Source: Citrobacter sp. FP75 (GTDB lineage Bacteria; Pseudomonadota; Gammaproteobacteria; Enterobacterales; Enterobacteriaceae). Taken from it: DNA of 64,000 nt. The stretch covers positions 338 to 64,337 of the forward strand of contig NZ_JAFDOE010000010.1 of the NCBI RefSeq assembly GCF_018342065.1. The letters run 5' to 3'. The first letter of the stretch is position 1; the number at the start of each line of letters is the position of its first letter. Positions 35,540-60,433 of the stretch are shown one piece after another. The position numbers were made by a program, and so were the translations under genes. The notes under the pieces are model-generated. The model had not been told where the DNA came from, ran no database searches, and was given only the letters and a program-made list of their open reading frames with translations.

Positions 35540-35983
35540 ATGCGGCAAATTATTGATACCCTGGCGCAACTGCAGCGTCTGCGGGATAAATCAGTAAAAG
35601 ACATGACGGTACAGCTGGCTAAGCAGCAGCAGGTTTGTACGGGGTTTGAAAATAACATCAAAGCTCTCGGCTATCTTATCCAAAAAACCGGTACCGGCGT
35701 TGATGCCCCTTCTGTTGAATCACTCAAAAATGTGACCGGATATAAAGGTACGCTGCGTACGGTCATTGCCTGGCAAGAGCAGGAAAAAACGCTGGCGAAA
35801 ATCAAAGAATTACGTATTCAGAAAAACCTGGTGTCGGCGGCGTGTGAAGAGAAAATTGTCGCCATGACGCTGGATGATAAACGTTACGAGCTGAGCAATG
35901 AGGCGCTGGTAAAAGAACAAAAAGCTGTGGATGAAATTGCTGCGCAGTGCTGGTTAAGACAGAAGACGCTGGGACTGGTATGA
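35540..35983 (+). CDS. lfiJ: Lateral flagellar export chaperone LfiJ (FliJ)
   Basis: 147-residue, almost entirely coiled-coil protein with the position and size of FliJ, the central stalk of the export ATPase. Sequence identity to classical FliJ is low, as is usual. Its stop overlaps the start of the first modification-island gene (ATGA), so the island is transcribed and translated with the basal-body operon. Confidence 0.88.
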   Translation: MRQIIDTLAQLQRLRDKSVKDMTVQLAKQQQVCTGFENNIKALGYLIQKTGTGVDAPSVESLKNVTGYKGTLRTVIAWQEQEKTLAKIKELRIQKNLVSAACEEKIVAMTLDDKRYELSNEALVKEQKAVDEIAAQCWLRQKTLGLV

Positions 35984-36438
35984 AAACAATAATTACTTTC
36001 GGCACGTTTGATGTATTTCACATTGGTCATTTACATATTTTGCAGCGCGCTGGGCAGTTGGGAGAGCGGTTGATTGTCGGCGTCTCTTCCGATGCGTTAA
36101 ATATGCAGAAAAAAGGCAGGATGCCGGTCTACAGCCAAAGCGATCGCATGAGGATTGTTGCCGGGCTGAAATGTGTGGATAGCGTGTTTCTCGAAGAGTC
36201 GCTGGAGAAAAAAGCGGATTATATTCGCCAGTTTAAGGCTGACACACTGGTAATGGGCGATGACTGGGCCGGGCGCTTTGACAGTTTCTCTTACCTGTGT
36301 GAAGTGGTGTATTTTCCCAGAACGCCTTCGGTATCCACCACCTCAATTATTGAGGTGGTTAAAAATGGGACCTGTATTACTACTGGTATTGAATATCCTG
36401 TTTTTTCTTATAATCCAGATGCTACCGAATTACTCTAG
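35980..36438 (+). CDS. Glycerol-3-phosphate cytidylyltransferase (TagD-like)
   Basis: 152-residue nucleotidyltransferase that makes CDP-glycerol from CTP and sn-glycerol 3-phosphate. It shows HIGH at residues 14-17, VMGDDW near 91-96 and the RTxGISTT-type motif as RTPSVSTT at 114-121. The closest match I can recall is Gram-positive TagD, which is about 23 residues shorter at the C-terminus. ATG 35980 overlaps the lfiJ stop; no separate promoter is seen. A CDP-glycerol donor would feed the phosphotransferase domain encoded at 42085-44640. Confidence 0.85.
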   Translation: MKTIITFGTFDVFHIGHLHILQRAGQLGERLIVGVSSDALNMQKKGRMPVYSQSDRMRIVAGLKCVDSVFLEESLEKKADYIRQFKADTLVMGDDWAGRFDSFSYLCEVVYFPRTPSVSTTSIIEVVKNGTCITTGIEYPVFSYNPDATELL

Positions 36439-36458
36439 CTTGAATAATGGGTGCTTAA

Positions 36459-37652
36459 ATGCGTAAAAATATTGTCTTCCTCCATATGGAAAGCCTTAAT
36501 CAGCAGGTTTTTGCAAATCGGCAGTGGTTTCCAGCAATTAATTTAATATATGGGAAGTCTCTGCGGTTGACTCGTTTTATTTCGAGTGCTACATCAACTT
36601 TTATGGCCTTGAGTGACATGTTGCATGGGGATGATATGTTGCTGGAGCACAATGAAAACTATGATGACAATATGACTGTAAATAAATCTTGTCGTAGTAT
36701 TTTTGATATTCTTGAAGAGAATGGGTATGAAACATTGGGGACGGAATCCCCTACTGGATGGGATAGATTTAATCATATCTGGAATGATCATAACGATAAG
36801 AAACAGCAATGGGATGATGTTTGTCATGACATGATGGAGAAAATTGAAGATAAACTCAAAAATTTAAAAGCTCCATTGGGTCTTTATTTTTGGAATCCAA
36901 CTAGCCATATTTGTTGTTATGATAAGTATAAGTTTGCTGAACATGGTTTTGATTATTGGCGAAGAGGATGGTCTAATCTTGATCGTTCAATAAATGAATT
37001 AATTAGACTCCTTTTAAAATATAATCAACTTTCGAATACTATTATTGTAGCATTTGGAGACCATGGCGATGATTTTTGGACGCATGACAGTAATGGCGGG
37101 TTTGCTCATGCGATTGAACCATATATACCTTTAATTCATACTCCAGCATTTATTTTTGGAACAGGTATGCCGGCTAATGATGTTAACCATTTGGTTAGTA
37201 TGGTTGACTTAAAAAAAATATCACTTCAACTGCTTAATATACCAGATAATGATTCCGTTTCTTCACCAACATATACATTGAGTGGCGGGCGAAAATATTG
37301 TTTTAGTAGAAATATATCTGCGGCTCAGAATGATAGCAAAAAAAATGATTTACGAAAAGGCTATAGCATAACATCAGATTATCTACATTTGATGAAATTA
37401 AGAGGTAAGTATGAACTTTTTTCCTGGAATTTAGACCCATGCAATCATTTTAATCTGCTAAAACTGTTTTCTGTAAATAAAAATGACCAACTGATCTATA
37501 CTCCAGATAAATACATGAAAAAGTCACATGAAAAATGCCATGTACACTATAAAAGTATAATTTATTCTACGACGATAGACTATATCACTGAAAGTTATAG
37601 CAGAATGAAACAAGAGTTGGATTCTTTTATTGAAAGAAAAAATAATTATTAG
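36459..37652 (+). CDS. Sulfatase/alkaline-phosphatase-fold enzyme, cytosolic
   Basis: 397 residues with the metal-binding pattern of the sulfatase/LtaS superfamily: FLHMESLN near residue 8-15, a Ser/Thr-rich nucleophile segment SSATSTFMALSDMLHG, and GDHGDD ... GGFAHAIEPYIPLI. There is no signal peptide or membrane helix, unlike lipoteichoic synthases or MdoB, so it should act in the cytoplasm. Codon use is visibly AT-rich compared with the flagellar genes, a sign of transfer. Likely role: adding or removing a phospho-glycerol or sulfo group on the glycan. This is inference. Confidence 0.7.
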   Translation: MRKNIVFLHMESLNQQVFANRQWFPAINLIYGKSLRLTRFISSATSTFMALSDMLHGDDMLLEHNENYDDNMTVNKSCRSIFDILEENGYETLGTESPTGWDRFNHIWNDHNDKKQQWDDVCHDMMEKIEDKLKNLKAPLGLYFWNPTSHICCYDKYKFAEHGFDYWRRGWSNLDRSINELIRLLLKYNQLSNTIIVAFGDHGDDFWTHDSNGGFAHAIEPYIPLIHTPAFIFGTGMPANDVNHLVSMVDLKKISLQLLNIPDNDSVSSPTYTLSGGRKYCFSRNISAAQNDSKKNDLRKGYSITSDYLHLMKLRGKYELFSWNLDPCNHFNLLKLFSVNKNDQLIYTPDKYMKKSHEKCHVHYKSIIYSTTIDYITESYSRMKQELDSFIERKNNY

Positions 37653-37705
37653 CATGAAATAGCAAAGATTAAAAATTTATAGCCAGTGTTAATTATAGGT
37701 ATTGT

Positions 37706-38542
37706 ATGAATAAAAATAATTGCATTATCTGTGGCACAGATATGGAGTTTTACTTTAATAAGGAAAAATACCGCTCTTTATCTCTTGCCAGTTTTACTCG
37801 TTCTCTTGGTCCAATCAAATACTATAAATGTCCTGCTTGTGGTTTTGTTAGTTCCAGAACACATCAGGAATTAAGTGTCGAGGAGTGGAGTAATTTGAAT
37901 ATGAGTTTTCATCATTATAATGAAAGTTGTGATCGGGAATCACTTGGTTTCAATCAACCCCCTTACGCAGAGCAAGCCTTTATGATTGAACTGCTCGCGA
38001 AAAATGATATTGTCAATGCAAACGCTATTCTAGATTATGCTGCTGGATATGGCACTCTTAGTAATGTTAGTCGTAAGTATTTTGGTCGAGAAATCAATTG
38101 TTATGATAAGTATGTCATTAATGCTGAATTGAACTATATTAAGAACCCTCAACAAAAAAAATGGTCAATGGTGATAAATTCCGCGATGTTTGAACACATT
38201 CTATATAGGGAGGATCTTGAAGCTGTAAATGATTTAGTTTCTGACACAGGATCATTATTTGTTCATACAGTTGTGGTGGAAGATATTCCTAACAATCCAG
38301 ACTGGTTTTATATAGATGTTCCAGTACATACAGCAGTACATACTAATCGAAGCATGGAGGTTTTGATGAAGCAATGGGGATTTAGTTCCTCAATTTACAG
38401 TCCAAAAAGCAAATCATGGGTATTCTTAAGAAAAAATTATGATGAAATAAAACCAACTATTGATAAGATAAATAAAGAATTGCAAACTGAATATTTATTT
38501 GGAAAAAAAGGGTTTATGGACTATTGGAAAGTAGCCTGTTGA
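37706..38542 (+). CDS. Zinc-ribbon SAM-dependent methyltransferase
   Basis: 278 residues. The N-terminus carries two C-x2-C knuckles (CIIC near residue 6, CPAC near 47), then a class I methyltransferase region with ILDYAAGYGTLSN as motif I (around 110-122) and a short acidic segment MVINSAMFEHI. Similar zinc-finger methyltransferases act in sugar modification clusters such as C-methylations of nucleotide sugars. The gene is AT-rich like the one before it. A hairpin follows the stop. Confidence 0.7.
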   Translation: MNKNNCIICGTDMEFYFNKEKYRSLSLASFTRSLGPIKYYKCPACGFVSSRTHQELSVEEWSNLNMSFHHYNESCDRESLGFNQPPYAEQAFMIELLAKNDIVNANAILDYAAGYGTLSNVSRKYFGREINCYDKYVINAELNYIKNPQQKKWSMVINSAMFEHILYREDLEAVNDLVSDTGSLFVHTVVVEDIPNNPDWFYIDVPVHTAVHTNRSMEVLMKQWGFSSSIYSPKSKSWVFLRKNYDEIKPTIDKINKELQTEYLFGKKGFMDYWKVAC

Positions 38543-38554
38543 TTTTTATCTATC

Positions 38555-38579
38555 TCCCCGCCAATATACTGGCGGGGGA
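38555..38579. terminator. Terminator between convergent island genes
   Basis: CCCCGCC (38556-38562) pairs with GGCGGGG (38571-38577), flanked by an extra A-T pair. It separates the rightward methyltransferase from the leftward ATP-grasp gene. T tracts are short, so strength is uncertain. Confidence 0.6.
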
Positions 38580-38599
38580 TAATGTATGTAGTCAGATGC

Positions 38600-39868
38600 T
38601 CATGATTCGATAAGTATTTCAATCATGCTAACATCAAATACAGGAATATCTTTATTTTTAGATACCTCTGACCGCTCACTGAAACTGTCATCAATGAATA
38701 TAGCATTAGATTCGAGAATGTAATCGCTTTTTTTATCATTACAGTTTATTTTTGAAATTGTTTCAAAAATACTATGGATGCGACGTTGTTGCAGTTCATG
38801 AGTAATATTTTTAGCGTGGCGGGTAATTAAATGTATTTTTATTCCATGATTAATGCATTGATATAAAAAGGTAACTATGGGTAGGCATAACTTGTTTTTA
38901 ACAACAATAGTGTCATCATAATCTATATAGACATGTTCAAAATTGATATTGTGTTTATATTTGTTTGATAAACTCCTTGTGATTTGAATATCTTTATAGG
39001 TTGGCAGAATGTTAATATCAGTTCGCATGCTTTCATAAATAGTAAGCATCGAAAAATTTATTCCAGCAACCCTGTTGAGCGCCATAGTTCCTGCGATACG
39101 TGGAGCAACCTCCAGTAATGTTAAAACACCTGAGGTAGAACGCTTCAACTGAAAAAACCATGCGCCGTAAAGCTGTAATTGCTGAGAAATAGCGCGAGCA
39201 TAAGTTTCAACTTCCGGCAGGCTGACTAACGTTGAGGTCATCGCAATTCCGGCACGTATTCGCGAGCGTACGCGAGGCTGGCAGAACAGTAACCCGCGAG
39301 CGCGATCGGAAAAACAATCAACGGTAAACTCATCCCCATTTAAATATTCGCAAACAATCAGGTTATCTCTTTCTGCCTGCAATGATGTCAGCATTGCTGG
39401 TGTATCAACACGCACGGCTCCCTGTGCTCCCTGACCACGATCCGGTTTAACAAATACGGGCCATTGTTCGATCTCAGTAACGTCGTTAAAGATCCGCGGG
39501 GTGGGAATTGAATGTTTCAGAACCTGGTATGTTTTACTTTTAAAGCGCGTAATTTGGCATGTTTTCTGCGATGGACAGAGTACCGTGGCGGAAAGTGCCT
39601 CCCGGTTTTCAGACAGAAAAAGAAGAGCGTCATCATGAGCTGGGAAAATATAATCAATGCTTTCTTGTAGAAGTAATGCCTGCAAGGCGAGTAACCCGTC
39701 CTGATGTGTAACATCAGGCACGATATGGTATCCGCATGCGTAATGGCGGGCATGGCTATCGTAGTCGGCACCGGCTAACACCAGGTTAATGTTTTTTTCG
39801 TATTGGAGAGAGAGATAGATCTCTCTGCCAATCTCGGTCCCCGCAGGGAATATAAGGACATTGATCAT
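38600..39868 (-). CDS. ATP-grasp ligase fused to HAD-like phosphatase domain
   Basis: 422 residues in two parts. Residues 1 to about 300 are a CarB-like ATP-grasp ligase (N-terminal GTEIGREIY, VFVKPDRGQGAQGAV nucleotide loop, LLEVAPRIAG metal-binding segment). Residues about 315-422 carry HAD motifs: YIDYDDTIV, LITRH, a lysine in CNDKKSDY, and FIDDSFSER. Both halves look catalytically complete. ATP-grasp enzymes join carboxylates to amines, so it may amidate or acylate an amino sugar or a glycerate unit. It overlaps the aminotransferase gene by four bases. Confidence 0.75.
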   Translation of the reverse strand: MINVLIFPAGTEIGREIYLSLQYEKNINLVLAGADYDSHARHYACGYHIVPDVTHQDGLLALQALLLQESIDYIFPAHDDALLFLSENREALSATVLCPSQKTCQITRFKSKTYQVLKHSIPTPRIFNDVTEIEQWPVFVKPDRGQGAQGAVRVDTPAMLTSLQAERDNLIVCEYLNGDEFTVDCFSDRARGLLFCQPRVRSRIRAGIAMTSTLVSLPEVETYARAISQQLQLYGAWFFQLKRSTSGVLTLLEVAPRIAGTMALNRVAGINFSMLTIYESMRTDINILPTYKDIQITRSLSNKYKHNINFEHVYIDYDDTIVVKNKLCLPIVTFLYQCINHGIKIHLITRHAKNITHELQQRRIHSIFETISKINCNDKKSDYILESNAIFIDDSFSERSEVSKNKDIPVFDVSMIEILIES

Positions 39869-40980
39869 GAGGTAATCAGCTCGATAATGGTACTGAGTTC
39901 GACGGATGTCATATCAGGATAAATCGGCAGGCAAAGCACCTGTTCGGAGATTTGGTTCGCAACGCTCAATGTCTCTTTATTGGCGCCAGACATGTTTTTG
40001 TACATGTTGAGATTAGACAGCAATGGATAGAAATAACGTCGTGTTAAGATATTATGACTTTTTAGATGATCATATAACGCATCTCGTGACATTTTATAGT
40101 CAGGGCGGACCAGTATCGGGAAATAACTGTAGTTGCTCTTGTGATTAGCATTACTTGCAGGAATGAAGATCCCTTGCGTATTGGCTAGATGCTCTCGATA
40201 ACACCGATCTATTATTTGGCGTTTAGATATCGCCTCATCAATATACTTTAATTGCAAAAGACCAAAAGCAGACTGAATTTCATTCATTTTTCCATTGAAG
40301 CCGGGGGCTACAACGGTTAACTCATCAGCAATACCGAAGTTTTTCAGATAATCGATTCGTTGCTTTGTTTTTTTATCGTAGCTAACGATAGCACCACCTT
40401 CAAATGTGTTGAAGACTTTGGTTGCATGGAAACTCAGTACGGAAAGGTCACCATGACGCAAAATACTTCCTCCAATATCTTCTACAGCAAAAGCATGTGC
40501 TGCATCATAAATGACGGGAATACCGTAATTATTAGATATTTTTTCAATTTCAGTGGTGTTACAGGTTTGGCCGTAGACATGCACCGGCATGATCAATCCT
40601 GTTTTGGGGGTAATGGCAGATTCAATCAGATGTGGGTTGATATTAAAGCTGTGTGGATCAATATCAACAAATACCGGTGTTAATTGATTCCAGAGAATGC
40701 TATGCGTTGTGGCAACAAAAGAATAAGGGGTAGTAATGACTTCCCCCCTAATTCGCAACGTTTGCATCGCGGTGATTAGTGCGATGGTGGCATTACAAAA
40801 TAACGAGATATAAGGTACATTCAAATAAGAGGCTAGACTTTCCTCTAGCAGTTGATGCATGATGCCATTATTTGTTAATTGCTTACTTGACCAGATTTCC
40901 TGTAGAAATGGCATAAACTCCTCCAAAGGAGGAAGGAAAGGTTTGGTAACTGTGATGATGTTTTTTTCTGCTTGTTTCAT
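39865..40980 (-). CDS. DegT/DnrJ/EryC1-type sugar aminotransferase
   Basis: 371-residue PLP enzyme that transfers an amino group to a nucleotide-linked keto sugar. Cofactor lysine Lys188 lies in LSFHATKVFN and the pyridine-contacting Asp159 in YDAAHAF. Length is normal. It stands in a leftward block with overlapping neighbours (GT2 upstream, ATP-grasp downstream). No dehydratase or epimerase for making the keto sugar is encoded in the island, so the substrate must come from the cell's own nucleotide-sugar pool. Confidence 0.85.
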   Translation of the reverse strand: MKQAEKNIITVTKPFLPPLEEFMPFLQEIWSSKQLTNNGIMHQLLEESLASYLNVPYISLFCNATIALITAMQTLRIRGEVITTPYSFVATTHSILWNQLTPVFVDIDPHSFNINPHLIESAITPKTGLIMPVHVYGQTCNTTEIEKISNNYGIPVIYDAAHAFAVEDIGGSILRHGDLSVLSFHATKVFNTFEGGAIVSYDKKTKQRIDYLKNFGIADELTVVAPGFNGKMNEIQSAFGLLQLKYIDEAISKRQIIDRCYREHLANTQGIFIPASNANHKSNYSYFPILVRPDYKMSRDALYDHLKSHNILTRRYFYPLLSNLNMYKNMSGANKETLSVANQISEQVLCLPIYPDMTSVELSTIIELITS

Positions 40981-42053
40981 AACTGAAAGTCCTGAGAATA
41001 ATTCTCGCTAATATATAGATATTGTTCTGGTAGTCGGTGTTTCAGGCTGATAAGGATAGTGCTCCTTATTCTACTATCAGTAATGCTTTTTAATGCAGCG
41101 GAGTATAGTTTAGGTAATACCTTGAGGCGTATATCACAATGAATTATAGCTTGTAATATATGATACTGAACTTTACTCAGGTCTCTGTTCTGAATAGCTA
41201 CCAAAAATCCCTGAAAATGTAATAATGGATCGGTTGGCTGTCTAATCAATAGTTCGTTAATATCGTCTTTGGCCAGTGTATGATTGGGATGGGCATACTG
41301 TTTCCAGCGATTGTTCATCGCATCTACCCAGGCATCTTCATGTTTCCACTGATTAATGATCATCATTCTGTTTCGGTACATTAATTTGCTATTATCTTTT
41401 CTGTACCAGGTATTATTGTCATGTCGACGGTAGTAAGCAACTAAACGTCGGGATGAAATAAAATGGCCCTGCCGGGAAAGTTTCAAAAACATATCCCAAT
41501 CCTCCTGTACCAGGTCTGGAGGAGAACGTTCTATCTTTAAGTATGCCTCGCGACGAATTAATGAACCGATATAAAGACTAAGATTCCCTGAAACAAGTAA
41601 ATGATGGAAAACATCGCCATCAAGAAATAAATCACTGTAGGGAAAATGTGAACCGTTAGGCATAATGACCTGAATGGCGCTATAGCACATTACGCAATGC
41701 GGGTTTTTCTCTAAGATATTAACCTGATGAGAGATTTTTGTGGGGGCAATAAGATCATCTGAGTCGACGACGGCAATATATTTTCCCGAGGCCATATTCA
41801 TTGCTTCTATGATCGGTTTGTCACCAATTTTATCCTTCTGAGAGTAATAGTTAGTATTTCGCAGTATCGTTTTGCAATTATATTTCTGCTGATATTTTTT
41901 TATGATATCGACAGACTGATCGGTAGACGCATCATCGACGATGATAACTTCGGTATTTTTCCATGTCTGGTTAAAGACGCTATCCAGCGCCTCTTCGAGG
42001 AAAGCATCGTGATTATAGCTGGTAACGATAATACTCACTAAAGGTGTTGGCAT
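40977..42053 (-). CDS. Family 2 glycosyltransferase
   Basis: 358 residues, GT-A fold. The N-terminal VSIIVTSYNHDAFLEEALDS, the acidic DDAS and the metal-binding DSDD (AVVDSDDLI near residue 96) are typical of inverting GT2 enzymes. No membrane helices. It overlaps the aminotransferase start by four bases and follows the large glycosyltransferase by 31. Acceptor unknown; either flagellin or a growing glycan. Confidence 0.82.
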   Translation of the reverse strand: MPTPLVSIIVTSYNHDAFLEEALDSVFNQTWKNTEVIIVDDASTDQSVDIIKKYQQKYNCKTILRNTNYYSQKDKIGDKPIIEAMNMASGKYIAVVDSDDLIAPTKISHQVNILEKNPHCVMCYSAIQVIMPNGSHFPYSDLFLDGDVFHHLLVSGNLSLYIGSLIRREAYLKIERSPPDLVQEDWDMFLKLSRQGHFISSRRLVAYYRRHDNNTWYRKDNSKLMYRNRMMIINQWKHEDAWVDAMNNRWKQYAHPNHTLAKDDINELLIRQPTDPLLHFQGFLVAIQNRDLSKVQYHILQAIIHCDIRLKVLPKLYSAALKSITDSRIRSTILISLKHRLPEQYLYISENYSQDFQL

Positions 42054-42084
42054 AGATTAATCTCTGGCGAAAATTATTGTGTAA

Positions 42085-44640
42085 TCAACTAAATAACTTC
42101 TGTTGCAGACTAAGTAGCAACGTATTGTTTTGCTTCGGGGTTTCAATGACGTTCACAATCTCCTGCGCAGCCCTCTCACCCGCCTTACCATCCATAAACG
42201 CATCGCAATAGCGGTGGCGAATGTCGTCCAGGGGAGCTTCCAGCGAACCCCAGTCAAAAGTGTCAGATAGCGCGGTGCGTAATGCCTGCATATCGTGTGC
42301 AACCGGGAGAATGTCCCGAATACGCTGATCGGCGCTATCTGGTGTGGAGAAACTTTGTTGCCCATCCAGTAGTGAGGTCATACCAGGCCAGCTCAGTAAA
42401 ATGACGCGTTTATTCATATGAATCGCATCAAAAATAAACCCGCTGCTATCCGTCAGGATGTAATCCGCGCGTGCAATGAGCGCCAGTAAGTGTTGAGGGT
42501 TATCGACTCTTTTCTTTAAAAACCGCTGCGCTAATGCCAGAGAGGCGGCTTCTTCCGGTCTGTGCAGGGTGCCATGATGCAGTTTGGTGACGACATTGTA
42601 TTCATGGCTTAATCGGCTGAGCGATTCGGCCCACTGCGGAAGAGAGCTTAGTGCGCCATAGGTTGGCGCATACAGGATGGTCGGTTTTTTCGCATCCAGC
42701 TTCAGGCTTTCTGGAAGCGTTTTATCATAAGTCGCGTTATGCCACTCATCGAAACGGGGATTACCCACCACTTTTGCACTGCCGCCGATATCGAGCGCCT
42801 GCTGGCTATAGTCGCTGTAACAAAGAATGCGATGATAGAAAGCGTTCCACCAGGCATGATTCCACTCCTCTTTTGCCAGCCCATACATCGTGCGTACCTG
42901 AACATCCGCCAGCCCGTTCAGTAACGGCGTGTAATAAGGGCTAACCAGGCATTTATAGCGCTGATGTTTCTTAATAACTTCAGAAAGGCGCGCCCCGCCC
43001 AGCGCGGGGTCGTTAATGGTTTTCAGCGTTGCGGTCATTTCATCGAGAAACGATTTGTGTATTTTGTCGCTCACCAGCAGTGAACAGGTATGACCCATTC
43101 CCTGCAGCGCGGTAATAATCGGACGATAGACCGCATAATGCAGCGACGTTTCCATATAGAAGCCAATGGCGTCGTGAGATGTGGAGGTCAGGCGAATCGG
43201 ATGCTGGACAGGATCGTTGAGTTTGTCTGGATTTTTATTAATTTTATTGAAGTAATAACCAATATTATCGGTGTCTTTCTTCTCTATATCGCTATATCCC
43301 GCGCGTTGGTAGCAAATGCTGGGATAACAGGAGAGCCATTTATCTTCACGTAGCAGCGGTTGCCATTGCTCTTCAACGGTATCTGAGAGGTCATGCTCCA
43401 TTTGCTGAGCCAGCCTCGGGTAATAACCGCTGTTGACCAGATAGGCACACACCTTATTGCAGTCACGGGCATGGATCATGCCATTGAGGCTTTTTAGTTC
43501 GTTACCGCGTTTAATTTCCCCTCCAAGGATAACCACTTCCCATGGAAAATTGGGCAGCGCATTCAGCAGTGAATTGAGTACTCGAATATGCTTTTCCTGT
43601 TTCAGGATCACGCTATCGTCTTCGAGTAACAGGTAGTTTTTCCAGCCCTTAAGCTGCGCCAGTTGCAGCGCCTGTCTATGAGACTGGCGGCGACCCGTCT
43701 GTCCGTTGGTGGCAACACTGGCGGCCAGACGGGTTATTTTTTCCGCTGGAAAATTGAGTTGTGCCAGTTCTTGCTGAATAAGCGCCAGACGATCCGTACG
43801 TGAATCCAGATTCACGATCACCACCTGATCGATATAATCCCACGCGATCGGTTGGTTATGCGTGGCGTTATGCAGGCTTTGATACCAATTTTTGAGCATT
43901 GGGTCTGCAACAGACTGCGTCAGCGGCGTATCCAGAGCTTCGCTTGTCCCCAACACAAAATCTTTATCAAACGTATTGTGGCTGTGTGAGATACAAATAA
44001 TGGTGCGATCGCCCGGTAATTGCAGTGGGTTAGCAGTGAATTTATGGGTGAATCCCTCTTCTTCGCCTAAGTTGCACTCATCATCGTAGCGGTGCTTTTT
44101 CAAATAGTTTCGATGATAGCAAAAGGTGCCATTAAGAATATTTTGTGGGCCAAAACTGCGGGTTTTGAAGATCCGGTTTATGTGGCTGTACCAGATTGGA
44201 ATCTGATCGGAACCGGATATTAATGCGCGGTGGCGCTGCATCATCTCAATGGTGTAAGAGATTTTATCTGCCGGATAATAGTCGTCATCATCCATACAGA
44301 GAATATATTCCCCTTGGGCCAATCCATTGAGCATATTGCGCTTTTTACCCAGATCGAGTTTTTCCGGGTGATAAATATAGCGAATATTAAATTTCTCGGG
44401 ATGATTCTGCGTCAACCTGTCGATGATCGACTGGTGGCTCTGGGGGGAATCATCGAGGATCACCAATTCCCGGCGGTCGGCGGGATAATCCTGATACCGG
44501 TACATGTACAGTAAGTAGGGTAAAAATGCGGCGCGGTTCCACGTTGGGGTGATGACGCTGACAAAGGGCTTTTCGCGGCCAGTATCCAGGGTTTTGACAA
44601 TGCCAGTCAGGGCGGCGTGTGCTTTTGAGGATTTTGACAT
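42085..44640 (-). CDS. Trimodular glycosyltransferase: GT2, GT25 and CDP-glycerol phosphotransferase domains
   Basis: 851 residues. Residues about 25-240 are a GT2 domain (VSVITPTWNR, acidic DDDD at 117-120). Residues about 270-460 look like a GT25 domain (VIVNLDSRTDR near 274, LLLEDDS near 338). The C-terminal part from about 500 matches CDP-glycerol glycerophosphotransferases (TagF/TagB): ILYAPTYG near 655, KLHHG near 686-690, and TDSSGFIFD from 730. ATG 44640 is used; a TTG at 44691 would extend it into a terminator hairpin. No membrane helix is evident, so it is probably cytosolic. Confidence 0.82.
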   Translation of the reverse strand: MSKSSKAHAALTGIVKTLDTGREKPFVSVITPTWNRAAFLPYLLYMYRYQDYPADRRELVILDDSPQSHQSIIDRLTQNHPEKFNIRYIYHPEKLDLGKKRNMLNGLAQGEYILCMDDDDYYPADKISYTIEMMQRHRALISGSDQIPIWYSHINRIFKTRSFGPQNILNGTFCYHRNYLKKHRYDDECNLGEEEGFTHKFTANPLQLPGDRTIICISHSHNTFDKDFVLGTSEALDTPLTQSVADPMLKNWYQSLHNATHNQPIAWDYIDQVVIVNLDSRTDRLALIQQELAQLNFPAEKITRLAASVATNGQTGRRQSHRQALQLAQLKGWKNYLLLEDDSVILKQEKHIRVLNSLLNALPNFPWEVVILGGEIKRGNELKSLNGMIHARDCNKVCAYLVNSGYYPRLAQQMEHDLSDTVEEQWQPLLREDKWLSCYPSICYQRAGYSDIEKKDTDNIGYYFNKINKNPDKLNDPVQHPIRLTSTSHDAIGFYMETSLHYAVYRPIITALQGMGHTCSLLVSDKIHKSFLDEMTATLKTINDPALGGARLSEVIKKHQRYKCLVSPYYTPLLNGLADVQVRTMYGLAKEEWNHAWWNAFYHRILCYSDYSQQALDIGGSAKVVGNPRFDEWHNATYDKTLPESLKLDAKKPTILYAPTYGALSSLPQWAESLSRLSHEYNVVTKLHHGTLHRPEEAASLALAQRFLKKRVDNPQHLLALIARADYILTDSSGFIFDAIHMNKRVILLSWPGMTSLLDGQQSFSTPDSADQRIRDILPVAHDMQALRTALSDTFDWGSLEAPLDDIRHRYCDAFMDGKAGERAAQEIVNVIETPKQNNTLLLSLQQKLFS

Positions 44641-44697: not shown

Positions 44698-45642
44698 CTA
44701 ACGTGTAAGCAGGGAAAATGCCGAGAGCAGATGGTCTCCCGGCAGTAGATTCTGAATCTGTTGACGTACTGATACGGCATCGCTGCTGTTTCGCCAGTCT
44801 TCAACTATCGCGAACAGGGCATAAATATCGTCATGACTGAGCTCGGAATCATCCATTGTCCACAGACAAAATAATGTACGAATCATAAAGACATCGGCGA
44901 CCAGCCAGAAGTGACGCTGGAGGGCGCTTTCGCTGTCATGTTGCGGGAAAACATCATGGTAAAGGCGATAAATCAGGTAGTTACTGAAAATCCACGGCGC
45001 TTGCGCGAAATAGCGTTCATCGGTTTTCAGCCATTGATCCTGGAGCTGCTGCTGGAGTAAGGCTTCGCTGTTAGCATCTTGCAGCATCAGCAGGCTTACC
45101 TGCAGAGGTAATGTCAGTTTACGCGTACTTTCCGGCAGCAGATCCCAGTTGAATTCACAGCTGCCCATGCGGGTGATGAATTCACGCTGAAGCTGGGGCA
45201 GGCTGGGCAATTGTGCAAACTGTTCCTGCAGTTTTCCCTCTTGCACGTAGTTCGCCAGAATCTGCGGTAGCGAGGCCAGTTTCTCCAGAACCTCTTTATT
45301 GTCACCGGGGCATTTATCGGAAAAAGAGAGCATGATGCCCAGCGCATACAGGCGCAGCTCCGGCGACAAACCGGGGAGGGTGATGGTATTCAGGGCTGAC
45401 TGATTTAACACCTGATCGCGTGGCGATAGTGCCGCGCTTTGCGCGTCAGATTCACATTGCGTGGTATGCAGGATAAAAGCGTTGGGATCGCCTAACGCAG
45501 CCTGACAGCTTGCCGGGGAGGTGAGCGCCAGACTCTGACGAATTTCCGTGTCCCAGCACAGTCTGACATGTAACGCAGAATCCGGCTGACGGGATAAAAA
45601 CAACCGGACAAAGTCAGGCTCATAGCAGTCAATCATACTCAT
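44698..45642 (-). CDS. lafV: FliB-like (lysine-N-methylase family) protein lacking the cysteine cluster
   Basis: 314 residues. The C-terminal part (FSNYLIYRLYHDVFP, then FMIRTLFCLW) is characteristic of the FliB flagellin lysine-N-methylase family, and the N-terminal YEPDFVRLFLS fits its opening motif. The FliB cysteines expected near the N-terminus (CxxCC and CxxYP-type segments) are mostly replaced; one Cys remains in RLCWDTE. The symbol follows the Flag-2 gene at this position and is tentative. It may modify LafA, or be a non-catalytic relative. A sigma-54 site precedes it. Confidence 0.65.
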   Translation of the reverse strand: MSMIDCYEPDFVRLFLSRQPDSALHVRLCWDTEIRQSLALTSPASCQAALGDPNAFILHTTQCESDAQSAALSPRDQVLNQSALNTITLPGLSPELRLYALGIMLSFSDKCPGDNKEVLEKLASLPQILANYVQEGKLQEQFAQLPSLPQLQREFITRMGSCEFNWDLLPESTRKLTLPLQVSLLMLQDANSEALLQQQLQDQWLKTDERYFAQAPWIFSNYLIYRLYHDVFPQHDSESALQRHFWLVADVFMIRTLFCLWTMDDSELSHDDIYALFAIVEDWRNSSDAVSVRQQIQNLLPGDHLLSAFSLLTR

Positions 45643-45771: not shown

Positions 45772-46200
45772 TTAACGGTGGTAAATAAAATCTGGCTCAG
45801 TGCCTAAAAAGGTCTGAATAAATTCATACTGGCGGATCAGCAGCTCGCCGTTCTTTTCGTTGTAGGCTTTGCAGCGTTCTGCTTTTTGCTCAAGATTTTG
45901 CCACCAACCGTGTGCGGCATTTTTTTGCGGCGTGGGTAACCAGCTAAACACCTGTTCCAGCCCGGCGCGATTGATGCTCACGCCCAACATTTGCAGGATT
46001 GAACGACGCTGCTGGCTGCTGTTTTTCAACTGCTCATAGTGCTGTTGAATGATGTCATTTACCGCCAGTAACTCTTCGCTGGCGCGACGGATCATACACA
46101 GACGCTGTTGCTCAAGCTGGGCCCGAAGCGTGTCATACAACATCTCGTCTTCACGAATGCCCTGAAGCAGGCTCTTCACCTGCTGTAGCCTGGTGCTCAC
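45772..46200 (-). CDS. lfgN: Lateral flagellar export chaperone LfgN (FlgN)
   Basis: 142-residue helical protein in the position and of the size of FlgN, the chaperone for the hook-filament junction proteins (LfgK, LfgL). Heptad-like residues fill about 5-70. Sequence identity to classical FlgN is low. It follows lfgM by 12 bases on the minus strand. Confidence 0.85.
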   Translation of the reverse strand: MSTRLQQVKSLLQGIREDEMLYDTLRAQLEQQRLCMIRRASEELLAVNDIIQQHYEQLKNSSQQRRSILQMLGVSINRAGLEQVFSWLPTPQKNAAHGWWQNLEQKAERCKAYNEKNGELLIRQYEFIQTFLGTEPDFIYHR

Positions 46201-59530: not shown

Positions 59531-60433
59531 ATGTTATCGATTAATACTAATACCGCATCAATGGCAGCTGTTAACGCTATCAACAAAAGCAGCGCATCTC
59601 TGTCTACTTCTATGGAACGTCTGGCGACAGGTAACCGCATTAACTCTTCTGCTGATGATGCTGCGGGCAAACAGATTGCCAGCCGCCTGACTGCACAATC
59701 CAGCGGCATGGGCGTTGCACTGAGCAACATTCAGGACGCAACCGCAATGCTGCAGACCGCAGATAGCATGTTTGATGAAATGACCGACGTGCTGGGCCGC
59801 ATGAAAGACCTGTCCACGCAGGCAGCGAACGGAACCTACAACAGCGACGACCTGCAGGCTATGCAGGATGAATACGACGAACTGGGCCAGCAGATGTCCG
59901 ACATGCTGCAGAACACCACCTACGGCGGTACTAACCTGTTCGGTACGGCTTCTGGCAGCAACACCGGTACTGCTGGCCTGTTCCAGGGCGCAGTGACCTT
60001 CCAGGTTGGTGCAGAGTCTTCTGACACCATGACCGTGGATATCTCCAGCCAACTGGGCGACCTGGTGAATGATCTGGGTAGCGTGAGTGCTTCTTTCACT
60101 TCTGATCAGGCTGGTACTGCTGGTACTGGTGGTACGGAGCTGACCACTTCTGGTTCTGCTAACACCATGATCGGCAGTATCCAGACTGCCATGGACGACG
60201 TGTCCAAGATCCAGTCCAAACTGGGTGCGTCTATCAACCGTCTGAACGACACCGCAGCTAACCTGACCAGCATGCAGGACAACACTGAAGTCGCTATCGG
60301 TAACATTATGGATACCGACTACGCGACGGAAGCCTCCAACATGACTCAACAGCAGGTGCTGATGCAAACAGGTATCACCATGCTGAAGCAGTCCAACAGC
60401 ATGTCCAGCATGGTTTCCAGCCTGCTGCAGTAA
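59531..60433 (+). CDS. lafA: Lateral flagellin LafA
   Basis: 300-residue filament subunit. Highly conserved flagellin ends, N-terminal SINTNTASMAAVNAINKSS and C-terminal ATEASNMTQQQVLMQTGITMLKQSN, flank a short Thr/Ser/Gly-rich middle region (about 137-220). No cysteine. The strong AAGGAG ribosome site fits high expression. The Ser/Thr-rich centre would be the natural target of the glycosyl/glycerophosphate modification island. A terminator follows. Confidence 0.96.
   Translation: MLSINTNTASMAAVNAINKSSASLSTSMERLATGNRINSSADDAAGKQIASRLTAQSSGMGVALSNIQDATAMLQTADSMFDEMTDVLGRMKDLSTQAANGTYNSDDLQAMQDEYDELGQQMSDMLQNTTYGGTNLFGTASGSNTGTAGLFQGAVTFQVGAESSDTMTVDISSQLGDLVNDLGSVSASFTSDQAGTAGTGGTELTTSGSANTMIGSIQTAMDDVSKIQSKLGASINRLNDTAANLTSMQDNTEVAIGNIMDTDYATEASNMTQQQVLMQTGITMLKQSNSMSSMVSSLLQ

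Follow-up and report, generated by a model that had tools for sequence, protein, structure and literature searches.

The lateral flagellum (flag-2) locus of Citrobacter sp. FP75 (source genome 5.09 Mb) carries an island in its variable region 1, from lfiJ to lfgN, that is likely a cytosolic flagellin-modification system, in which a TagD-type enzyme would make cytidine diphosphate (CDP)-glycerol and the TagF-like domain of a three-domain protein would put glycerol phosphate on the glycan of the lateral flagellin LafA. The island lies within the window, i.e. the whole 64,000 nucleotide stretch analyzed here (RefSeq assembly GCF_018342065.1, contig NZ_JAFDOE010000010.1, positions 338 to 64,337 of the forward strand). 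Among related genomes TagD is linked to the TagF-like domain where the motifs of that domain are kept, and is lacking where they are broken.

The three-domain protein would act on LafA before export: its GT2 domain would place a core sugar on LafA, its GT25-like domain would possibly extend that sugar, and its TagF-like C-terminal domain (C-domain) would move glycerol phosphate from CDP-glycerol onto the resulting glycan, in a mode like that of Pseudomonas aeruginosa FgtA with glycerol instead. The FliB-like protein LafV would methylate flagellin lysines, and further elaboration of the glycan would fall to an accessory cassette specific to the lineage, made up of the sulfatase-superfamily protein, the methyltransferase, the ATP-grasp protein, the aminotransferase and the second GT2.

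Coupling of TagD with an intact TagF-like domain

In an even draw of 391 Enterobacterales genomes from the GTDB family of the window, relatives of the three-domain protein (E<=1e-50) were found in 46 genomes and TagD (E<=1e-20) in 52. The C-domain is present in 31 of the 46, fused in 22 and as a separate gene in 9, and is absent in 15. A linked TagD accompanies 27 of the 31 C-domains (18/22 fused, 9/9 separate) and none of the 15 proteins that consist of the front part only (Fisher p 7.6e-9). A preliminary description of the window had proposed that CDP-glycerol synthesis and transfer are encoded together in the lateral flagellum locus; this co-occurrence across other flag-2 loci, together with the domains and the predicted fold, supports the proposal, with glycerol as the probable rather than the demonstrated donor. 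Linkage is to be read with two caveats, since in G380 it runs across a contig break and in G171 a distance of ~79 kb separates the C-domain gene from TagD and the front part. The lfiI/lfiJ genes of G344 are some 20 kb away, and a TagD ~2 Mb distant from a front part in G041 was counted as unlinked.

The four C-domain genomes that lack a linked TagD (G012, G104, G169 and G090) keep the domain with broken motifs. In the numbering of the domain, whose residue 1 is residue 481 of the three-domain protein (P0002), the motif residues are Y106, K110, H208 and S253; Y106, K110 and S253 are lost in 4/4 TagD-less C-domains and kept in 27/27 TagD-linked ones. Measured against the 54 positions that are invariant in the window and in 29 intact loci, of which 26 come from the family sample and three more from the window's genus, G012 has lost 14, G104 4, G169 18 and G090 20, two of the last being gaps. 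All four changed positions of G104 fall within the three motifs, and it is exactly in TagD and C-domain motif integrity that this genome differs from G222, a relative in the same genus.

The association recurs across the phylogeny. On a GT2-domain tree of 47 rows, which takes in the three additional loci from the window's genus and leaves out G191 and G173 (whose front part is outside the fetched stretch), the TagD state changes at least 12 times, and in 10 of 10 independent pairs with good branch support it goes with the integrity of the C-domain (p 0.002). On the C-domain tree the branch of the G104 locus (L043) is 0.15 long, against 0.011 for its sister L060 (G222); this tree also joins G169 with G090, a grouping that carries a long-branch warning. 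There appear to have been at least two clear separate erosions of the C-domain, perhaps three or four. The ratio of nonsynonymous to synonymous substitution rates (Ka/Ks) between L043 and L060 is 0.203 in the C-domain versus 0.089 and 0.077 in the other domains; in ten pairs without a TagD-less member the C-domain gives 0.062-0.141. This comparison is supportive only, because one of those ten pairs has a value of 0.375 in the GT25-like domain. Within the window's genus the protein occurs in 12 of 17 genomes, with linked TagD in 11 of the 12, and the twelfth is G012. Among five genomes searched in the genus around G090, G090 alone has the protein, which leaves no contrast to draw.

A C-domain that is non-catalytic or epimerase-like, with TagD serving another enzyme such as the sulfatase-superfamily protein, would account for the similarity of its predicted fold to epimerases as well, for the persistence of an eroded form without TagD in four genomes, and for the flag-1 cassettes described below, which hold TagD and a sulfatase-like protein and lack a TagF-like domain. 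This is very unlikely given that the motif residues are retained with TagD and lost without it, and that a sulfatase-like relative beside TagD is lacking in 22 of the 27 TagD/C-domain genomes and in the E. coli island that was read.

G012 is the genome whose locus branches closest to that of the window on the GT2-domain tree. The slot of tagD in its flag-2 variable region is taken by a legionaminic-acid-type pathway (L042:10754-17773). Models for a LegC-family aminotransferase, NeuC, NeuB and NeuD score over cut-off there, and a PseF-like protein scores below it. Its eroded C-domain is 51-52% identical to that of the window and saturated at synonymous sites, versus 94% identity in the GT2 domain; it may be a product of recombination instead of decay in situ. 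The lateral flagella of Plesiomonas are reported to carry legionaminic acid (PMC4481668), and G012 looks like a case in which one flagellin decoration was exchanged for another.

The TagF-like domain

The TagF/TagB-like domain that the preliminary description placed ~6 kb downstream of tagD is well founded: PF04464 (Glyphos_transf) matches residues 624-748 of the three-domain protein with 29.1 bits (cut-off 22.1), and the predicted structure of the C-domain has the GT-B fold of TagF, with fold matches to 8qoy and 8a0m. This is the single PF04464 match of the source genome. Scores of homologues encoded as separate genes are 31.7 (L035) and 34.6 (L036), and no PF04464 match was obtained for the eroded C-domains of L029 and L031. 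The middle domain, unnoticed in the preliminary description, was recognized as GT25-like through relatives: at a threshold of E<=1, PF01755 matches nine of the 14 fused proteins (lowest E 2.3e-4) and does not match the window copy. The nearest named relatives of the whole protein are from Citrobacter, at up to 87% identity.

TagF requires His444 and His584 (PMC5974469). The KLHH of the flag-2 domain (H208), invariant in 29/29 intact loci, probably corresponds to the His584 position; it pairs with KMHP of TarL in a weak alignment (E 0.42), and hhalign shifts the pairing by two. At the motif corresponding to His444, where two ordinary family members have an aligned GHGIPLK, all 29 intact flag-2 domains have YGLAK, and a Tyr thus appears to replace the catalytic His. 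The equivalence is indirect because no alignment spans the position. That all four TagD-less copies have lost this Tyr suggests it is important. With a Tyr probably at the His444 position, the domain is not a plain TagF. The hhalign mapping to TagF covers domain residues 122-271, with a two-residue shift relative to the TarL alignment, and the equivalence of the catalytic residues is thus tentative.

A class-wide search of 276 genomes for the C-domain (E<=1e-15) gave only the source genome and a weak partial match in G469, with no TagD match within the 20 kb fetched around the latter (L104); an origin of the domain outside the Enterobacterales was therefore not traced.

The TagD-type enzyme and the probable donor

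The single TagD match of the source genome (E<=1e-20) is inside the island. The protein matches Bacillus subtilis TagD (PDB 1COZ) with E 2e-31 over query residues 1-127 of 152, and PF01467 (CTP_transf_like) scores 73.2 bits against a cut-off of 21, in agreement with the family assignment made earlier. The TagD-specific equivalog model TIGR01518 remains below its cut-off (119 versus 165.4 bits). As the synthase is of the TagD type, the donor alcohol is probably glycerol.

The transferred group could instead be phosphodiester-linked but other than glycerol, with the TagF-like domain or the TagD-like enzyme handling another (phospho-)alcohol. The subthreshold TIGR01518 score, the probable Tyr at the TagF His444 position, the CDP-threonine donors proposed for the nearest flagellin precedents, and the presence of an accessory aminotransferase and ATP-grasp protein that could modify an alcohol all point that way. 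The likeness to B. subtilis TagD over most of the protein and the lack of any match in the island to a sugar-nucleotidyltransferase of the CD0242 kind speak against it, and this substitution is judged unlikely.

Flagellin as the probable target

The family search found TagD in 55 places, of which 27 pair with the C-domain, 4 are in loci of the primary flagellar system (flag-1) and 24 are elsewhere. Flag-2 genes are visible in the fetched stretches of 26 of the 27 TagD/C-domain loci; the exception, G173 (L072), has no flagellar genes in the 20 kb fetched, and shows a sulfatase-like gene in two pieces beside TagD and a C-domain with intact motifs. Nineteen of the 24 other places were fetched and have no flagellar genes, the remaining five (43-47% identity) being outside the fetched set. 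At one of the 19 (L098:9706-11224, G327) a PF04464 protein that has a similar motif, YGYAK, comes directly after TagD, beside open reading frames that, judged by sequence, resemble a capsule ATP-binding cassette (ABC) exporter; this protein is possibly a non-flagellar relative of the TagF-like domain.

Flagellin, to which the preliminary description also pointed, is the best-supported substrate on the basis of these associations, most strongly because the cassette recurs beside two different flagellin systems. In a Kyte-Doolittle scan none of the eight island proteins shows a membrane segment (maximum 19-residue hydropathy 1.56, versus 2.13 for the LfgA control), which fits cytosolic modification before export and not a lipid-linked polymer; within the island, the lipid-carrier and export proteins of a wall teichoic acid pathway are thus lacking. 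A surface polysaccharide (O-antigen, capsule or a teichoic-like polymer) as the product, with the flagellar location incidental, would suit the TagD places without flagellar genes, including the one beside capsule-exporter-like reading frames, but is highly improbable in view of the flag-2 genes at nearly all TagD/C-domain loci, the recurrence of the cassette beside fliC and the absence of membrane or export proteins from the island.

The term teichoic-acid-like, used in the preliminary description, is not upheld, as the island shows no sign of a teichoic-acid polymer pathway, and the acceptor sugar of LafA would more plausibly receive one unit. A poly(glycerol phosphate) chain on flagellin, which the "glycopolymers" of an earlier survey (discussed below) imply, seems a poor prospect: TagF-like polymerases do exist in Gram-negative bacteria (PMC5974469) and a second possible glycerophosphotransferase is present, but the FgtA and Clostridioides difficile type A glycans carry single phosphodiester-linked groups and the sequence holds no evidence for processivity.

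The sulfatase-superfamily protein and the flag-1 cassettes

Another island product that the preliminary description had passed over, the sulfatase-superfamily (PF00884) protein, has the conserved Glu, SATS(T/S) and GDHGDD. It has no hydrophobic N-terminus (maximum 19-residue hydropathy 1.03), and so no membrane anchor of the LtaS type. Its solved relatives are S1 sulfatases (E 5.7e-9) and LtaS (4uoo, E 2.8e-5); a structure model was discarded as too poor (predicted local distance difference test score, pLDDT, 48.6). LtaS-like proteins are reported from flag-2 variable region 1 (PMC6993521). Relatives at E<=1e-30 occur in 9 of the 391 genomes, each ~1.2 kb or less from TagD (9/9).

Four of these nine relatives lie between fliC and fliA of flag-1 loci (G103, G095, G214 and G397, at L089, L094, L116 and L120), in cassettes of TagD, ATP-grasp and sulfatase-superfamily genes, with DegT too in three of the four. 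L089 and L094 have FliZ, recognized by pattern, and a GT41 (OGT-like)/methyltransferase protein beside the cassette. No TagF-like domain is found in the fetched stretches of the four. ATP-grasp relatives occur in 18 genomes, ten of them at >=49% identity, and nine of the ten are TagD-linked (all but G080); the remaining eight (32-37% identity) are none of them near a TagD of the family search.

These loci raise the idea that enterobacterial flagellins of flag-2 and flag-1 alike receive glycerol phosphate, and that a pair of unrelated cytosolic enzymes, both drawing on TagD, adds it: one the TagF-like domain, its catalytic His replaced by Tyr, the other a soluble CDP-glycerol-dependent phosphoglycerol transferase of the alkaline-phosphatase superfamily. 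It is put forward as a speculation that we would not expect to hold; to our knowledge there is no example of CDP-glycerol-dependent phosphoglycerol transfer in that superfamily.

Three other Citrobacter islands (L012, L025 and L030) have sulfatase-like (41-42% identical) and methyltransferase-like genes after ATP-grasp on the same strand, unlike the window, in which these two genes sit on the tagD strand. The window sulfatase-like protein is closer (66%) to the G191 copy (L070), which suggests a cassette swap.

Layout of the island

The coordinates are collected in Table 1. The plus strand carries tagD, the sulfatase-superfamily gene and the methyltransferase gene, and the convergent minus strand genes are those for the ATP-grasp, DegT, GT2, three-domain and FliB-like proteins. 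As described before, tagD starts inside the lfiJ stop codon (ATG at 35980, TGA at 35981-35983, an ATGA overlap), and Pfam matches bear out the aminotransferase, ATP-grasp and GT2 assignments. The methyltransferase keeps its name from a motif; no Pfam or NCBIfam match was obtained at the thresholds used, and weak matches of 20-21% are present in L047 and L110. In 1-kb steps the G+C content is 31-50% in the island versus 51-57% in the flanks. A G+C-rich inverted repeat, CCCCGCCA...TGGCGGGG, at 38555-38580 between the convergent gene groups is possibly a shared terminator.

Table 1. Features of variable region 1 and the proposed substrate, in window coordinates
Feature	Coordinates	Strand	Match or basis
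lfiJ (FliJ-like), left border of variable region 1	35540..35983	+	PF02050 39.9 bits
TagD-type glycerol-3-phosphate cytidylyltransferase	35980..36438	+	PDB 1COZ, PF01467, TIGR01518 (below cut-off)
Soluble sulfatase/alkaline-phosphatase-superfamily protein	36459..37652	+	PF00884 48.5 bits
Putative S-adenosylmethionine (SAM) methyltransferase, N-terminal Cys pairs	37706..38542	+	motif reading only
ATP-grasp ligase, C-terminal HAD-like stretch (HAD from motif)	38600..39868	-	PF15632 68.9 bits
DegT/DnrJ/EryC1-family sugar aminotransferase	39865..40980	-	PF01041 316.6 bits
GT2 glycosyltransferase	40977..42053	-	PF00535 90.8 bits
Three-domain GT2/GT25-like/TagF-like protein, 851 residues	42085..44640	-	
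TagF-like GT-B domain, residues about 490-840	42121..43173	-	PF04464 match at 42397-42771
GT25-like middle domain, approximate residues 265-469	43234..43848	-	PF01755 in relatives
GT2 domain of three-domain protein	44215..44559	-	PF00535, residues 28-142
FliB-like (LafV) lysine N-methylase	44698..45642	-	NF038110 65.5 bits, below cut-off 85
lfgN, right border of variable region 1	45772..46200	-	matches annotated flgN, same place in E. coli
LafA lateral flagellin, proposed substrate	59531..60433	+	PF00669 115.8 bits, PF00700 73.4 bits

Relation to known systems

The idea that flagellin may carry glycerol phosphate has appeared before, as a prediction. De Maayer, Pillay and Coutinho (2020) surveyed flag-2 variable region 1 and reported TagD in 235 strains, TagB1-8 in 65, LtaS in 30 and WecE in 29, together with LafV and many glycosyltransferases, and concluded that teichoic-acid-like glycopolymers are part of the flag-2 flagellin glycan (PMC6993521). 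The place (lfiJ to lfgN), the kinds of genes and the inference are the same as for the present island; section 9 of that survey does not mention the fused GT2/GT25/TagF-like protein, the coupling of TagD with the motifs of its TagF-like domain or the flag-1 cassette. Added here are the domain hidden in this protein, the link between TagD and the motifs, and the flag-1 cassette together with its sulfatase-superfamily partner. In the literature searched, mostly outside subscription journals, no experimental test of the 2020 prediction was found, nor any paper that joins flagellin, glycerol phosphate, CDP-glycerol and glycosylation; the main text of "Flashy flagella" (PMC4875605), a paper on flag-1, has no mention of cytidylyltransferase, sulfatase, glycerol, TagD, LtaS or teichoic.

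As working precedents, the P. aeruginosa b-type PA1088-PA1091 and C. difficile type A CD0240-CD0244 systems come closest. PA1091 (FgtA) is described as a GT2 glycosyltransferase and phosphotransferase (PMC11833859, PMC10714395), mutants show that its cluster is needed for the phosphodiester-linked dimethylthreonine on the flagellin deoxyhexose (PMC11833859), and CD0244 is proposed for the equivalent step (PMC11833859, PMC10714395). The island protein resembles PA1091 in joining GT2 to a predicted TagF-like phosphotransferase within a flagellin locus, with a proposed role in adding a phosphodiester group from a CDP donor to a flagellin sugar; unlike PA1091 as described there, it has a GT25-like domain between the two. 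The donor proposed for PA1091 and CD0244 is CDP-(methyl)threonine, from a nucleotidyltransferase that models on a sugar pyrophosphorylase, whereas the island synthase is of the TagD type, and neither a cytidylyltransferase of the sugar-nucleotidyltransferase type nor a ThrH-like phosphatase/phosphotransferase was matched among the eight island proteins.

CDP-glycerol chemistry, presented in the preliminary description as best known from Gram-positive wall polymers, is established in Gram-negative capsules as well (PMC5974469), so that contrast was overstated. The capsule polymerases Cps7D, Cps3D and Bcs3 are, like the island protein, multidomain, TagF-like and Gram-negative, and Cps7D and Cps3D use CDP-glycerol; the fold matches 8qoy and 8a0m point to this group too. 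They make capsule polymers, however, and the polymerases studied in that work have both catalytic His residues of TagF (PMC5974469), whereas the island has no capsule machinery and probably a Tyr at the first His position. In Geobacillus thermoglucosidans DSM 2542 tagD is likewise inside a flagellin glycosylation island, but in a Gram-positive organism and with pgs (phosphatidylglycerophosphate synthase), and has been read as a possible phospholipid-derived modification (PMC5109656).

Occurrence in E. coli and implications

Of 5426 complete E. coli genomes, 1262 have a close tagD (next to fliJ in 12 of 12 rows listed) and 1265 have the three-domain gene, with >=80% query coverage in 1263; among the matches listed the latter is annotated as a glycosyltransferase. 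Routine annotation misses the E. coli C-domain because its PF04464 score of 16.0 is below cut-off, and the TagF-like domain, judged by sequence, is often the hidden C-terminus of a protein so labelled, which may explain why TagD outnumbers TagB (235 versus 65) in the 2020 survey. In SD134209, the one intact E. coli locus read, the island consists only of tagD, the three-domain gene and a hypothetical gene that matches the FliB-like protein of the window at 55%. In E. coli H2 the end of the three-domain gene remains beside a truncated fliD.

If the proposed pathway is correct, a building block of teichoic acid decorates the flagella of common enteric bacteria, and glycerol phosphate would join the known phosphodiester-linked groups of flagellin. 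Annotators would have reason to seek a phosphotransferase behind the "glycosyltransferase" label, and the four TagD-less genomes, with at least two separate events, would be natural loss-of-function comparisons for mapping the active site. The genome comparison ties the TagD and TagF-like enzymes together, and thus makes the published idea testable, even in ordinary E. coli.

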